Positions 1,599-64,000 of a stretch of DNA of 64,000 bases are shown here, one piece after another. The notes under the pieces are model-generated. The model had not been told where the DNA came from, searched no databases, and worked only from the letters and a program-made list of their open reading frames with translations. Numbering within the stretch: position 1 is the stretch's first letter; each line of letters starts with the position of its first letter. A program made the translations under genes and the position numbers. Source of the stretch: Kovacikia minuta CCNUW1 (GTDB taxonomy: Bacteria; Cyanobacteriota; Cyanobacteriia; Leptolyngbyales; Leptolyngbyaceae); NCBI RefSeq assembly GCF_020091585.1, contig NZ_CP083582.1, forward strand, positions 3,968,001 through 4,032,000, read 5' to 3'.

Positions 1599-1731
1599 CA
1601 ACCGATGAAAGTTGATGTTATTTAATTCTCATGCCTTAGCTGTGCTGATTCAGGTTAATCCGAAGGGAAACATGATCGTATCACCCAACCTTTTCAAACA
1701 TCCTCTTGAATGGGTCTCTTTAAAGTAGGAA

Positions 1732-1795
1732 CCGCCTGAACAAACGTTCAGGCGGAGTGTGGTGTGAGGAGTGAACGGAAACATGCGTCTCCGCT
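1732..1795 (-). ncRNA. yfr1: Yfr1 small regulatory RNA
   Basis: On the minus strand the order is: a 7-bp hairpin with arms CGGAGAC and GTTTCCG (1776-1793), the unpaired motif ACTCCTCACAC (1762-1772), then a 10-bp terminator-like hairpin with arms CCGCCTGAAC and GTTCAGGCGG (1732-1755). This two-hairpin layout with the exact 11-base single-stranded motif is the hallmark of Yfr1, a small RNA of about 55-70 nt found across cyanobacteria that pairs with mRNAs (outer-membrane protein mRNAs in the studied cases). Its position next to a guaB-family gene matches the known guaB linkage in other cyanobacteria. The 5' end near 1795 is inferred from a TACAAT box at 1802-1807. The 3' end is inferred from the hairpin, whose following tract is only moderately T-rich. 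Confidence 0.88.
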
Positions 1796-36553: not shown

Positions 36554-38191
36554 TTACTGTAAGCAGTGCCCCAGTACCGAAAAAATCTGCTGCTGCTCAA
36601 ACAGCTCAACCAGATGGTGGTTGAGTTTATTTTGTGCCGCTTCCTGCCGCAAAATTTTGAGCGCATTTGCCACCGTTAGCCCTTTTTTGTATGGTCGATC
36701 GCCTGCCGTAAGGGCATCATAAATGTCTGCGATCGCCATAATTTGTGCCTGAATCGGGATATCGGGTTGCTTCAAACCCAGGGGATAGCCCGTACCATCT
36801 AACTTTTCATGGTGCCCATAGGCAATCGTTGGCACGTCCTTTAGTTGTTTAGTCCAGGGAATTCGCTTCAGGAATTCGTAGGTGTGGATAACGTGGGACT
36901 GAATGGCATCCCGTTCTGCCTGGGTCAAATTTCCCCGATGGACGATGAGTTGGGTCATTTCCTCGGGAGTAATCAAAGGTTTGTCGGTGCCATCAATATC
37001 CCGATAGGTGTAATAGCAGAGCTCCTTCAATTGCTCCAACGGTTCCTCAGCCAAAATCCGGGGTTCGTTTGCCTCCAGCAAAATTTTCCAGTAGTGACTC
37101 AGTTGAGCGATATTCTCTTCTAAATCCGTTTCTAACCGCTCAAACTGTTGGCAATGGGGACAGGCTTCATCCACTGCCGCATGCTCCGGACGATGGCTGG
37201 GATGTTCCACCAGGTAGCGGAACTTTGCCTGGGCACATTCCATTTCCAGGGTTCGTTGGGCTACAGCAAACCGATTCCGCACGACCTCAAGCTGTGTTGG
37301 GTAAAGTTTCTTCTGCTTTCCCAGAATGGCTTCTGGAACACCGACCTTGCCAAAGTCATGTAACAGCGCAGCATACCGAATTTCTTGAATTTGCCGTTCA
37401 TTGAAATAAATAGGATGGAGCGGTCCTATTCTCACCAAACTGGCTGCCTGGCTGAGGCGCACCGTTAAATCCGCAACACGCTCTGAATGCCCTGATGTAC
37501 AAGGATCACGGGCTTCAATGATCTGCACTGAAGCTCTCACAAACCCTTCAAATAAATTTTCAATACTTTCCTGCAACTGGTTTCGTTCAATCGAGATCGC
37601 TGCCTGGCTTGCCAGCGATCGCAGCACCCGTTCCTCCCAATCCGAGTAGGGCTGAGTCACTTCCAGGGCGTTTTCAGCCGTAATCGTGACATCTGTTCGC
37701 CGTTTGCGGTTAATTAACTGAAGGACACCGATCGTTTCCTGTTCCTGGTTTTGCATCGGCAGGACCAGTACAGAGCGAGTCCGGTAGGAAATTGAGCGAT
37801 CAAAACTGCGGTCTAGCTGGTATGGAAGGTTCTCCGGCAAATCATAAGCATCTGGAATATTCAAACTCTGCCCTGTGAGCGCCACATAACCCGCCAGGCT
37901 TTTGTAAGTCAGGGGCATGGCAAATTCTTGGAACGATGCTGCCGGGTTAGAGTCATTCTGAGCCACCTTAAACCAGAGCACGGGAACTTCATCGGTGCGG
38001 TCAATTAAATACACGCTCCCCGCGTCGCTACACGTAATTTCCCGACTTTTTGACAAAATCAAGGTTAGCAATTCCCCCAGATCATCGGTGCTGGAGAGTG
38101 CAGTCCCAATTGCCAGGAGTTGCTCAATCAACTCAGCACGTTCGATCGATTCCTGAGAAAAAGCCAGGCTATCAGCCATATCCAACCTCAA
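36554..38191 (-). CDS. GAF-HD-GYP cyclic-di-GMP phosphodiesterase
   Basis: The 545-residue protein has a GAF domain (about 20-195) and an HD-GYP domain (about 215-540). HD-GYP enzymes hydrolyse cyclic di-GMP at a binuclear metal site. The HD motif is LLHDFGKVG and the GYP motif is HHEKLDGTGYPLGL, both intact. Between them lies an unusually long insertion of about 110 residues with a CPHCQQFE motif and helices. No receiver or membrane anchor is present, so the GAF domain is the likely input. The gene stands alone between the fra operon and the small transcript at 38.7-39.0 kb. Confidence 0.92.
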   Translation of the reverse strand: MRLDMADSLAFSQESIERAELIEQLLAIGTALSSTDDLGELLTLILSKSREITCSDAGSVYLIDRTDEVPVLWFKVAQNDSNPAASFQEFAMPLTYKSLAGYVALTGQSLNIPDAYDLPENLPYQLDRSFDRSISYRTRSVLVLPMQNQEQETIGVLQLINRKRRTDVTITAENALEVTQPYSDWEERVLRSLASQAAISIERNQLQESIENLFEGFVRASVQIIEARDPCTSGHSERVADLTVRLSQAASLVRIGPLHPIYFNERQIQEIRYAALLHDFGKVGVPEAILGKQKKLYPTQLEVVRNRFAVAQRTLEMECAQAKFRYLVEHPSHRPEHAAVDEACPHCQQFERLETDLEENIAQLSHYWKILLEANEPRILAEEPLEQLKELCYYTYRDIDGTDKPLITPEEMTQLIVHRGNLTQAERDAIQSHVIHTYEFLKRIPWTKQLKDVPTIAYGHHEKLDGTGYPLGLKQPDIPIQAQIMAIADIYDALTAGDRPYKKGLTVANALKILRQEAAQNKLNHHLVELFEQQQIFSVLGHCLQ

Positions 38192-38694
38192 AACGACGCG
38201 CGGTACTCATTTTAGGATTCCCTCGCGATCACTGAATCTTGTGGCACGACCCTACCACTGACTCAAGAAGTATTTTTCGTCACATGTAGCTTAGCCAAAA
38301 ATTGCCCGCCAATAGAATTCCTTGTGACAATTTTGTAATCTAAGCTTCAGCATTAATAGGGCTTCAGTTCTATTAACGATCTCCACCAACTATTTCGATG
38401 AGGACAGATTCAGTGAATCCAGCTTTTTATTACTCCTGAATCTCAACGCGAAACCCTGACAACCTAAATCGTATCTACTAACTTACCTCCACTATCAAAA
38501 TAGACGGAGAATTTATAAATGGCGTATGAATAAAGAACTTTTTGTAAGTAGGCAAACATGATTAAGGAGCCAGAATCCAGGAGCCAGAAGGCTTCTATCA
38601 TTCTGACTCCTGCGTTCTAGCGCCTGAATTCTGATTAACTGTCTTTCACCCAAGCGGGAATTGCGATGATTCTGGAGCATTTAAACTCCCTTTT
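38192..38694. other. Intergenic region with minor repeats
   Basis: About 500 bases without a gene. Near 38565-38640 there are inverted phrases of the AGGAGCCAGAATCC and GACTCCTG kind, related to the intergenic repeats elsewhere. Nothing else is seen. Confidence 0.5.
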
Positions 38695-38991
38695 AAAAAA
38701 CTATCCGCTCCTACCATCGTACTCTGGCAAACCAGAACACTCAGGGGCAGGAGCGGTGTAGCGGGTCTTCAAACTGGAACCAGACTGCCGGGAGGAAATC
38801 CAAGCCAGCCCAGCTACCAAGCTGCAAATAGTCCAGAAGGACTATAGCTGGCTGTTAGAGAACAGCCCCGGCGCACAGCCGACTAACTCCAGCTTGACGA
38901 CCCAAGCATTTACTACTATCTTGCATGGGCATCACCTCCTTGTTGCCTAAACGGTCTTAATTTCAAGAGGTCGTGGGTGTTTAACACCCTC
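38695..38991 (-). ncRNA. Structured small transcript with a short ORF and terminator
   Basis: Reading the minus strand: a TATCTTAAAT region (near 39000) could serve as a -10. Next come a hairpin GGGTGTT/AACACCC (38975-38989), a perfect AAGGAGGTGAT ribosome binding site (38931-38941) and a 23-codon ORF. Then follow a hairpin ATAGTCC/GGACTAT (38829-38846) within further CCAGCT/AGCTGG pairing, and an end hairpin with arms CCGCTCCT and AGGAGCGG followed by ATAGTTTTTT. The order looks like a complete independent transcription unit of about 300 nt. I do not recognise it as a named RNA. Confidence 0.6.
38855..38926 (-). CDS. 23-residue peptide ORF with a perfect Shine-Dalgarno
   Basis: An ATG at 38926 lies 4 bases after AAGGAGGTGAT, an 11-base perfect complement to the 16S 3' end and by far the strongest ribosome binding site seen in this window. 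The peptide begins MQDSSKCLGRQAGVSR and ends in a small hydrophobic tail; it has two Cys. It could be a small protein, or a leader peptide whose translation controls folding of the downstream hairpins. No homologue is known to me. Confidence 0.5.
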   Translation of the reverse strand: MQDSSKCLGRQAGVSRLCAGAVL

Positions 38992-39031
38992 ATTTAAGAT
39001 AGCACACGGATCGAGAACGTGGTAAATCTGA

Positions 39032-40579
39032 TCAGGTCTCGTCTAAACTCCCCGATCGCCAGAGTTTGATCGTCCGATCGCAGCCACCGCTGATGAGCAG
39101 CTTTCCATCAGAACTGTAAAGCACAGAGGAAACCGAACCCGAATGCTCAGAAAGGGTGCCCAGGAGTCCCTGATGCACGTGCCACAGCTTGATGGTCTGG
39201 TCTTTGCCACCGCTGAGCAACTGTTGGTTGTCAGGACTGAAGGCGATCGACGAAACCCCATCAGCATGCCCAACTAAACGATTCAGTGGCTTGCCTGTTA
39301 CCAGGGAATACTCATTCCAAAGCTCAATCTCTCCGTTATTGCTGCCTGTGGCAAAGAACCGACCGTTTGGGCTAATGGCAATCGATAAAATCTCGCTAGA
39401 GTGCCCCATCAGCGTTCGCAGAAGTTCCCCGGTTCGCAAATGGTACACCTTAACCGTGTGGTCGTCACTACCACTCAAGACCATCTGCCCGTCTGGGCTA
39501 AGGGCAATGGCTTGAATAGGAGAAGCGTGTCCATCCAAAGTCTGCGTTATCTCTCCAGTCCTCAGGTTCCAGAATCGCAGGGTTCCATCTAAACTTCCAC
39601 TGACAAGGGTTTGTCGATCGGGACTGATTGCCAGCGATCGGACACCGCCTGTATGTCCCTTCAGGGTCCGAAGCAGATCCCCTGTCCGCAGGTGCCAGAG
39701 GTGGATGGATTGATCTTCGCTACCGCTCGCCAACAGTTGCCCGTCTGCACTCAGAGAAAGGCACCAAACTGGGCCAGTGTGCCCGGAGAGGGTACAGAAT
39801 TGTTTAAGTGTCCGCAGATTCCACAGATGAAGGGTGGTGTCCAGGCTGCTACTGGCAAGAATTTTGCCATCCCGACTGAGGGCGATCGCAGTCACAGCCT
39901 CAATGTGACCACTCAGTGTTTGCACACATTTCCAGGGAAGCGGTTTGGGAGGTGGGGATGGAGTTGTTGGTTGGGCAGATACAGCAGTTGAACTGGACGC
40001 CTGGGGTGAAGATTTTGAATGGGCGGTCGTTGTTTGACGCTTGAATTCCTGTTCAAACCGCTCTCGGACACTATTTCTCCTCGGATTGGAGGTTTGTTTA
40101 GCTGATGATTGATCTAAACCTAATTCTTTTGCTTTCTTTAAATCCGATTCTGCACCCAGTTCAAATCCCAATAGAGAATTCACAAATCCCCGGTAGCGAT
40201 AGGCTTCAGCATAATTGGGATGCAGCCGAATTGCCATGCCAAAGTCTTCCAGGGCTTCCTTATACTTCCCAGCTTTGACATTCTCTGCACCCTGGTTGTA
40301 GAAAACTTCTGCTCTGGTCGTTTTGCTGCTCACCACCGTTTGCGGCGATCGGCTGGAGAAATTTTGAGTTGAGGCTTCAGACTGGTAGTTCCTCAGCAAT
40401 TGGTACGCTTCGTTAATCTGCTTAATTTTTTCTTCTGCCTGTCGCTTCAGTTGGGGATCTTGGGAGAAGCGATCGGGATGCCAGATCTTAGCGAGATTGC
40501 GATAGGCTTGCTTAATCTCTGCCTGAGATGCACCGGGTTGAAGTCCCAAAATTTCGTAATACTGCTTAATCTCACTCAT
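39032..40579 (-). CDS. DnaJ-TPR-WD40 fusion protein
   Basis: The 515-residue protein starts with a J domain (1-65) including the HPD motif (IWHPDRFSQDP), which stimulates Hsp70 ATPase. TPR-like helices follow (about 88-150; FYNQGAENVKAGKYKEALED), then a Ser/Thr/Pro-rich linker, then seven WD40 repeats (about 210-510; for example TLSGHIEAVTAIALS, TLKGHTGGVRSLAIS, KLWRSG at the end). Seven repeats make one closed propeller. The WD40 and TPR parts would bind clients and the J domain would recruit DnaK. No dnaK is nearby. The frame is complete. Confidence 0.93.
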   Translation of the reverse strand: MSEIKQYYEILGLQPGASQAEIKQAYRNLAKIWHPDRFSQDPQLKRQAEEKIKQINEAYQLLRNYQSEASTQNFSSRSPQTVVSSKTTRAEVFYNQGAENVKAGKYKEALEDFGMAIRLHPNYAEAYRYRGFVNSLLGFELGAESDLKKAKELGLDQSSAKQTSNPRRNSVRERFEQEFKRQTTTAHSKSSPQASSSTAVSAQPTTPSPPPKPLPWKCVQTLSGHIEAVTAIALSRDGKILASSSLDTTLHLWNLRTLKQFCTLSGHTGPVWCLSLSADGQLLASGSEDQSIHLWHLRTGDLLRTLKGHTGGVRSLAISPDRQTLVSGSLDGTLRFWNLRTGEITQTLDGHASPIQAIALSPDGQMVLSGSDDHTVKVYHLRTGELLRTLMGHSSEILSIAISPNGRFFATGSNNGEIELWNEYSLVTGKPLNRLVGHADGVSSIAFSPDNQQLLSGGKDQTIKLWHVHQGLLGTLSEHSGSVSSVLYSSDGKLLISGGCDRTIKLWRSGSLDET

Positions 40580-63639: not shown

Positions 63640-64000
63640 AACAGGGAGGTTTTCCCTCCCCGTCCCCACGGCACCCCGCGTGCGGCTCCGCACGGGGTGC
63701 GTCCTCAGAAAGGTTTAGACGATCCAATACCAAGGAATTGGTGTCTAGGGCTGGTTACGCAATTAAGCGCCGACAATTTAGCTCCCCCATCCGGGTTCAT
63801 CGCCACGTCGAGCTTTACGGCTCCTCCCTGCTCTCTGAAGTTCAGCCCTTCACCCTGTCTCACCCATTACAATGAGCGTTTGGCTACTATGGCTACGGCA
63901 CGACTTCTGCTCAATCACCCCCAGCGTTACCACCAGACGCGCTGCCTCAATTTCCGTAGGGTTCTGTGGCTCCCTAACCGTTTCCAGCTAGACCTCAATC
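63640..64000 (-). mobile_element. Possible 3' part of a group II intron, runs off the right edge
   Basis: On the minus strand the region ends with a GC-rich hairpin having a 2-base GC bulge (63670-63705) and then a GGGAGG/CCTCCC hairpin followed by TTACCCGAT. This resembles domains V and VI of group II introns. Further upstream, phrases such as GCAGAAGTCGTGCCG and CATAGTAGCC look like the region preceding an intron-encoded protein. There is no reverse transcriptase ORF in the visible 360 bases. The catalytic triad of domain V is not convincing, so a degenerate copy or another structured element is possible. Confidence 0.4.

Follow-up and report, generated by a model that had tools for sequence, protein, structure and literature searches.

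RNAIII of Staphylococcus aureus is a regulatory RNA that is structured, carries a very short open reading frame (ORF) close to its 5' end, and has C-rich stretches in its 3' part. In hok-type mRNAs, long-range pairing between the 5' and 3' regions lets the 3' end close the message. The element described here lies on the minus strand of a 64,000-nt stretch of the Kovacikia minuta CCNUW1 genome (hereafter "the window", meaning the whole stretch analyzed), and is likewise structured, with a short ORF towards the 5' end and a C-rich stretch located 3'. However, it is unrelated to RNAIII in sequence and organism, and its ORF forms one strand of the main helix. As in hok-type mRNAs, access to the small ORF would be governed by the 3' region of the RNA, but the prediction for this RNA is that the 3' arm opens the message rather than closing it, and the encoded peptide is not of the hydrophobic membrane type. 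A further cyanobacteria-wide small RNA, Yfr1 (RF01116), has a copy in the same window (1730-1794, minus strand, 59.4 bits), but it is short and non-coding, and the element gives no match to the Yfr1 model.

The closest described system is ncl0160, reportedly the subject of a 2016 study by Brenes-Alvarez et al. This sRNA was first listed for Synechocystis, with a homologue in Nostoc PCC 7120; homologues were found in 83 of 89 genomes, with a conserved peptide of 23–25 amino acids behind a ribosome-binding site (RBS) and stop codons distributed as TAA 47, TAG 34, and TGA 2 (PMC4734099). Prochlorococcus and marine Synechococcus were omitted from the published survey, and the passages of that article dealing with ncl0160 report no function; they mention a predicted structure (Figure S2), but no long-range helix between ORF and 3' arm, no switch, and no psbD linkage (PMC4734099). 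Across the literature searched, the name ncl0160 appeared in this article alone.

Results

Organization of the locus

The element sits between a DnaJ/WD40 ORF ending at 39032 and an HD-GYP/GAF ORF starting at 38191 (names read from the translations). All of the parts named in a preliminary description of this DNA, i.e., a hairpin, a Shine-Dalgarno (SD) sequence, a 23-codon ORF, further hairpins, and a terminator, are present on the minus strand between these flanking ORFs (Table 1). Positions 38693-38995 fold at -125.2 kcal/mol, compared to -98.1 ± 5.2 for dinucleotide shuffles (z -5.2, 0/100), and the 18-nt pattern combining SD and ATG (AAGGAGGTGATNNNNATG) occurs a single time in the whole 8.56 Mb genome. 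The sequence of the leader hairpin differs from genome to genome in the alignment. A 5' helix (ACCUCUUG/CAAGGAGGU), which masks the SD in the fold of the window copy, was also considered, but was judged by eye not to be general in an alignment of 86 sequences.

Table 1 Features of the element in the Kovacikia window.
Feature	Position	Strand	Remarks
Putative RNA, ~295 nt	about 38989-38695	-	Probable transcription start site (TSS) near 38989
Extended -10 promoter TGCTATCTT	38996..39004	-	Letters checked; hexamer TATCTT 39001-38996
Leader hairpin GGGTGTTAAACACCC	38975..38989	-	Sequence, MFE fold, alignment
Shine-Dalgarno AAGGAGGTGAT	38931..38941	-	Letters checked
23-codon ORF MQDSSKCLGRQAGVSRLCAGAVL, two Cys	ATG 38926 to TAA 38855	-	
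P2 5' strand CCCAUG, including start codon	38924..38929	-	Predicted partner 38906-38901
P2 3' strand CUUGGG	38901..38906	-	GGG common to P2 and P3
P3 5' strand, within ORF, end of codon 8 to codon 21	38866..38903	-	27 pairs
P3 3' strand (3' arm)	38763..38797	-	5' end C-rich, UUCCUCC
P4 terminator GGAGCGGATAGTTTTTT	38695..38761	-	Conserved lower stem CUAnACCGCUC/GAGCGGAUAG plus U run
Loop letters of the RNA, named as AGUAGUAAA	loop		

Two other observations were made in the window. Directly behind the terminator, positions 38553-38651 (minus strand) hold an imperfect repeat or hairpin with a sub-threshold mir-240 match, which we took as chance (24.6 vs 67.5 bits). Near the window end, positions 63845-63941 (minus strand) match Group II intron D1-D4 (RF01998) at 37.5 bits, for a threshold of 35.

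Distribution and relationship to ncl0160

The preliminary description had made the unit dependent on its conservation in related genomes, and the element is indeed conserved: BLAST with its 306 bases yielded matches in 50 of 58 relatives, and a covariance model of 116 positions covering the SD/ORF part had matches in 290 of the 388 cyanobacterial genomes of this class, almost invariably one per genome, including one deep match (G047). Genomes missed by this model included every listed member of one small-genome family (f2, 1.6-2.6 Mb), as well as some near-complete close relatives (G002, G021). No match to the element was found in phage and plasmid collections. Searched at both the gathering and relaxed thresholds, Rfam returned nothing on the element beyond chance matches, with no family at or above the gathering score. 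Overall, this minus-strand element is a real RNA gene, far beyond chance. Two copies look decayed (L178 in G207 and L168 in G237), retaining SD and start codon while having largely lost the peptide and the 3' helix/terminator.

For detailed counts, 170 loci were reduced to 146 by removing 24 second copies from the same genomes; these loci were picked for spread among the matches, not randomly, and loci L171-L199 fall outside the 146-locus counts. Like ncl0160, the element is sRNA-sized, is widespread and found in most cyanobacteria, encodes a peptide preceded by an RBS, and uses all three stop codons. Specifically, 141 of the 146 ORFs have 23–25 codons (128, 11, and 2, respectively), RGGAGGUGNUG precedes the start codon in 134/146, stop codons are TAA in 86 loci, TAG in 54, and TGA in 6, and the whole forms a lineage-wide single unit between a probable TSS and a terminator. 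The element thus almost certainly belongs to the ncl0160 family, a fit judged from the published description and not from a comparison of letters. A scan of named genomes for the 24-aa-type pattern returned 15 stretches, mostly from Pseudanabaena and none from Synechocystis, and ncl0160 was not placed on the 6803 chromosome. What is new beyond ncl0160 is the covarying helix that joins the ORF to the 3' arm, the maintenance of the frame, the predicted exchange between P2 and P3, and the psbD neighbourhood.

The ORF pairs with the 3' arm

We evaluated the P3 helix on an alignment in which 143 of the 146 loci with a 3'-arm match were reduced to 90 by a 90% identity filter and then to 86; four loci with weak 3' arms (L159, L160, L166, L167) were left out, a choice that favours the helix. 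Across these 86 sequences, 94.6% of cells in the 27 pairs of P3 were paired, compared to ≤58.6% when the arms were slid, and both sides changed at 22 pairs. Covarying cells numbered 133 vs 36.0 ± 6.4 in shuffles, and 0/500 shuffles reached any of the five measures used. RNAalifold recovered P3 unaided, with 25 of its 28 pairs. In the 3' arm, a motif of the UUCCUYCyGGCaG type was found in 103/146 loci under a strict and 115/146 under a loose definition, and the 3' arm or terminator is weak or absent in L159, L160, L167, and L168. A P3 hairpin between ORF and 3' arm is well supported by covariation. This lends support to the suggestion, made from the window alone, of a small protein or a dual-function sRNA whose downstream pairing elements respond to translation, as the ORF keeps its frame and its pairing with the RNA's 3' region covaries.

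Constraint on the reading frame and on the RNA

Of the 146 ORFs, 128 have exactly 23 codons, and frame maintenance was evaluated on the 120 distinct sequences among these. No in-frame stop was found, compared to 134 ± 85 in column shuffles (0/1000). Arm lengths, measured at 124 of the 146 loci, point the same way: the coding arm of P3 is 20 nt long at 123 of these, the exception (L089) being a pattern artefact, while the non-coding arm ranges from 15 to 20 nt and is off its mode at 49. When all 146 loci were inspected by eye, real exceptions in coding-arm length were limited to L159 (-2 codons) and to L161 and L162 (-1 base each), with L089 and L154 both pattern artefacts. Together, the lack of in-frame stops and a coding arm of constant length facing a non-coding arm of variable length indicate that the frame is maintained. 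Judged from these alignments, RNA and reading frame are both under constraint, the ORF is under selection to stay open, as expected for a dual-function sRNA, and its translation in the cell is very likely.

Evidence for selection on the peptide at the codon level is modest. The mean BLOSUM score of amino acid changes was 1.50 vs 0.52 ± 0.49 in column shuffles, with 30/1000 as high, but the synonymous fraction was not significant (183/1000 as high). Entropies at codon positions 1, 2, and 3 were 0.59, 0.65, and 0.66 bits, i.e., third positions are no freer than the others. A first alternative, which we consider possible at roughly one chance in four, is that the element is a small-protein gene whose product is the 23-aa peptide, the hairpin merely tuning the stability or translation of its mRNA. 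Start codon, strong SD, frame, and stop codon are kept together in 128/146, the BLOSUM value exceeds 970 of 1000 shuffles, and the deep-branching L167 and L160 retain RLCAGAV.L and L.SGAIL, respectively, although their 3' RNA has diverged. This reading fits poorly, however, with serine codons 4 and 5 being AGU in 113/120 each and codon 9 being GGU in 119/120, all three almost without synonymous change, or with codons 8 and 12, where third positions are nearly fixed and first positions variable. Moreover, the peptide matched no family in Pfam or NCBIfam, and its last six residues are missing in L155 (G063), L162 (G043), and L164 (G045), where the ORF is cut to 16–17 codons while the helix is largely kept or compensated. 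These three loci amount to a natural experiment that sets the peptide against the RNA. In L161 and L166, the ORF changes frame in its 3' half although the RNA letters there are conserved, and the shortened and shifted ORFs together show that loss of the C-terminal residues can occur.

The two cysteines highlighted in the preliminary description are real in the window copy but do not hold as a conserved property of the peptide. Among the 120 distinct ORFs, codon 7 encodes Cys in 48 and Arg in 40, and codon 18 encodes Cys in 84 and Arg in 23. A disulfide or another role requiring fixed cysteines was rejected since both codons vary between Cys, Arg, and other residues.

A second alternative, somewhat less probable than a small-protein gene, is a non-coding, trans-acting sRNA with a little-translated or untranslated ORF, in which the loop letters (AGAUAGUAGUAAA) or the C-rich 3' arm would pair with target mRNAs. 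Nucleotide conservation beyond coding need, the presence of AGUAGUA in 127/146 loci, and the free-standing nature of the unit, with its own promoter and terminator (see below), would all be consistent with such an RNA. On the other hand, SD, AUG, and stop codon are kept, in-frame stops are absent, and helix indels fall mostly in the non-coding arm, all of which count against this alternative.

A predicted switch at the start codon

CCCAUG, which includes the start codon, is found in 130/146 loci. To compare states, we folded the nascent RNA, truncated 20 nt downstream of the stop codon, and the full RNA, using a single energy model. Across 90 sequences, the mean probability of CCCAUG being unpaired was 0.12 in the nascent RNA, 0.41 in the full RNA, and 0.15 when the 3' part was shuffled. 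Opening was larger with the real than with the shuffled 3' part in 79/90 (p 6e-13, a value that is too small since related sequences are not independent). P2 and P3 probabilities, available for 89 of the 90 sequences, suggest an exchange of partners: the CCC/GGG pairing of P2 fell from a mean of 0.81 in the nascent to 0.15 in the full RNA, in which the GGG has a probability of 0.82 of pairing with the 3' part. P2 exceeded 0.5 in the nascent RNA in 73/89 and P3 exceeded 0.5 in the full RNA in 74/89; both states passed this level in 61/89, and the pattern was absent in 28/89. The window copy displays both states (0.998, 0.005, and 0.993 for P2 nascent, P2 full, and GGG with the 3' part, respectively).

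The isolated P2 hairpin was stronger than versions with a shuffled loop in 79/89. In the 86-sequence alignment, P2 displayed no two-sided covariation, since the AUG never varies and the GGG also belongs to P3; 23/86 sequences break the U-A/U-G pair of P2. Taken together, a P2/P3 exchange that closes and then opens the start codon represents a good prediction from the folding model.

Transcription unit and neighbouring genes

The motif TGNTANNNT was found 50–190 nt upstream of the ATG in 130/146 loci, compared to 25/146 in shuffled upstream sequence, whatever the neighbouring gene, and a terminator was found in 131/146. Both bear out the proposal, made from the window alone, of an independent transcription unit. 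The terminator stem covaries, with CCGCUC/GAGCGG in 98 loci and CCGCCC/GGGCGG in 28, and CUA/UAG in 121 and CCA/UGG in 5. Between CUA/UAG and CCGCYC/GRGCGG lies an asymmetric internal loop, (G or C)A vs A (38757-38758 and 38704 in the window), which is nearly fixed (128/131), a conservation that exceeds a terminator's needs.

The gene directly upstream on the same strand is psbD in 70/146 loci, i.e., 31 of the 103 loci with at least 700 nt of upstream sequence and 39 of the 43 located at contig ends; as assemblies presumably break in near-identical psbD copies and thereby enrich the contig-end group, 70/146 is not an unbiased rate. The remaining 72 of the 103 loci have no psbD before the element. 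The window genome contains three close psbD matches, none adjoining the element, which instead has the DnaJ/WD40 gene upstream. As contigs often break ~300 nt upstream of the element, an rRNA, tRNA, or tmRNA neighbourhood was suspected and then rejected: no tRNA or tmRNA was found in 30 loci and no Rfam match in 16, and the contigs break in psbD.

Downstream, the ORFs of 30 loci differ (HD-GYP/GAF, OprB-like porin, Rieske, and others), and no conserved gene was found among them. With a conserved terminator and differing downstream genes, the preliminary idea of a leader separated from its target gene finds no support. More broadly, it is improbable that the element acts in cis, either as leader or attenuator for an adjacent gene or, as the upstream psbD copies could suggest, as a psbD 3' element, given its own promoter and terminator, the differing downstream genes, and the loci without psbD.

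Discussion

From the comparative sequence evidence, the unit, its conservation, the P3 helix, and the reading frame can be considered established. We favour reading the element as a translated, self-switching, dual-function RNA of the ncl0160 family, free-standing, in which ORF and RNA structure form one object, and give this reading about an even chance. Under such a scheme, P2 would close the start codon during synthesis of the RNA. Once the 3' arm is made, P3 would withdraw the GGG from P2, leaving the start codon open for the strong SD to load a ribosome. A ribosome translating codons 9–23 would then melt P3, so that P2 could re-form, and the 3' arm, including its C-rich UUCCUYC, would be exposed for a short time. 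Translation may thus occur in pulses, in step with the state of the 3' arm, and the freed arm may pair with other RNAs, possibly with a link to D2 (psbD).

A more specific version of this self-switching RNA, which we regard as speculative and at about one chance in five, is a cyanobacteria-wide bistable RNA whose switch is reset by each passing ribosome and whose anti-Shine-Dalgarno-like UUCCUYC arm, once exposed, represses other messages, i.e., a translation-pulse sensor often located behind psbD and perhaps tied to photosystem II synthesis. The element is among the most widely kept cyanobacterial RNAs, yet it is without an Rfam entry, and its ORF/3'-arm helix, shared GGG, and psbD neighbourhood make it a system open to concrete and cheap testing.
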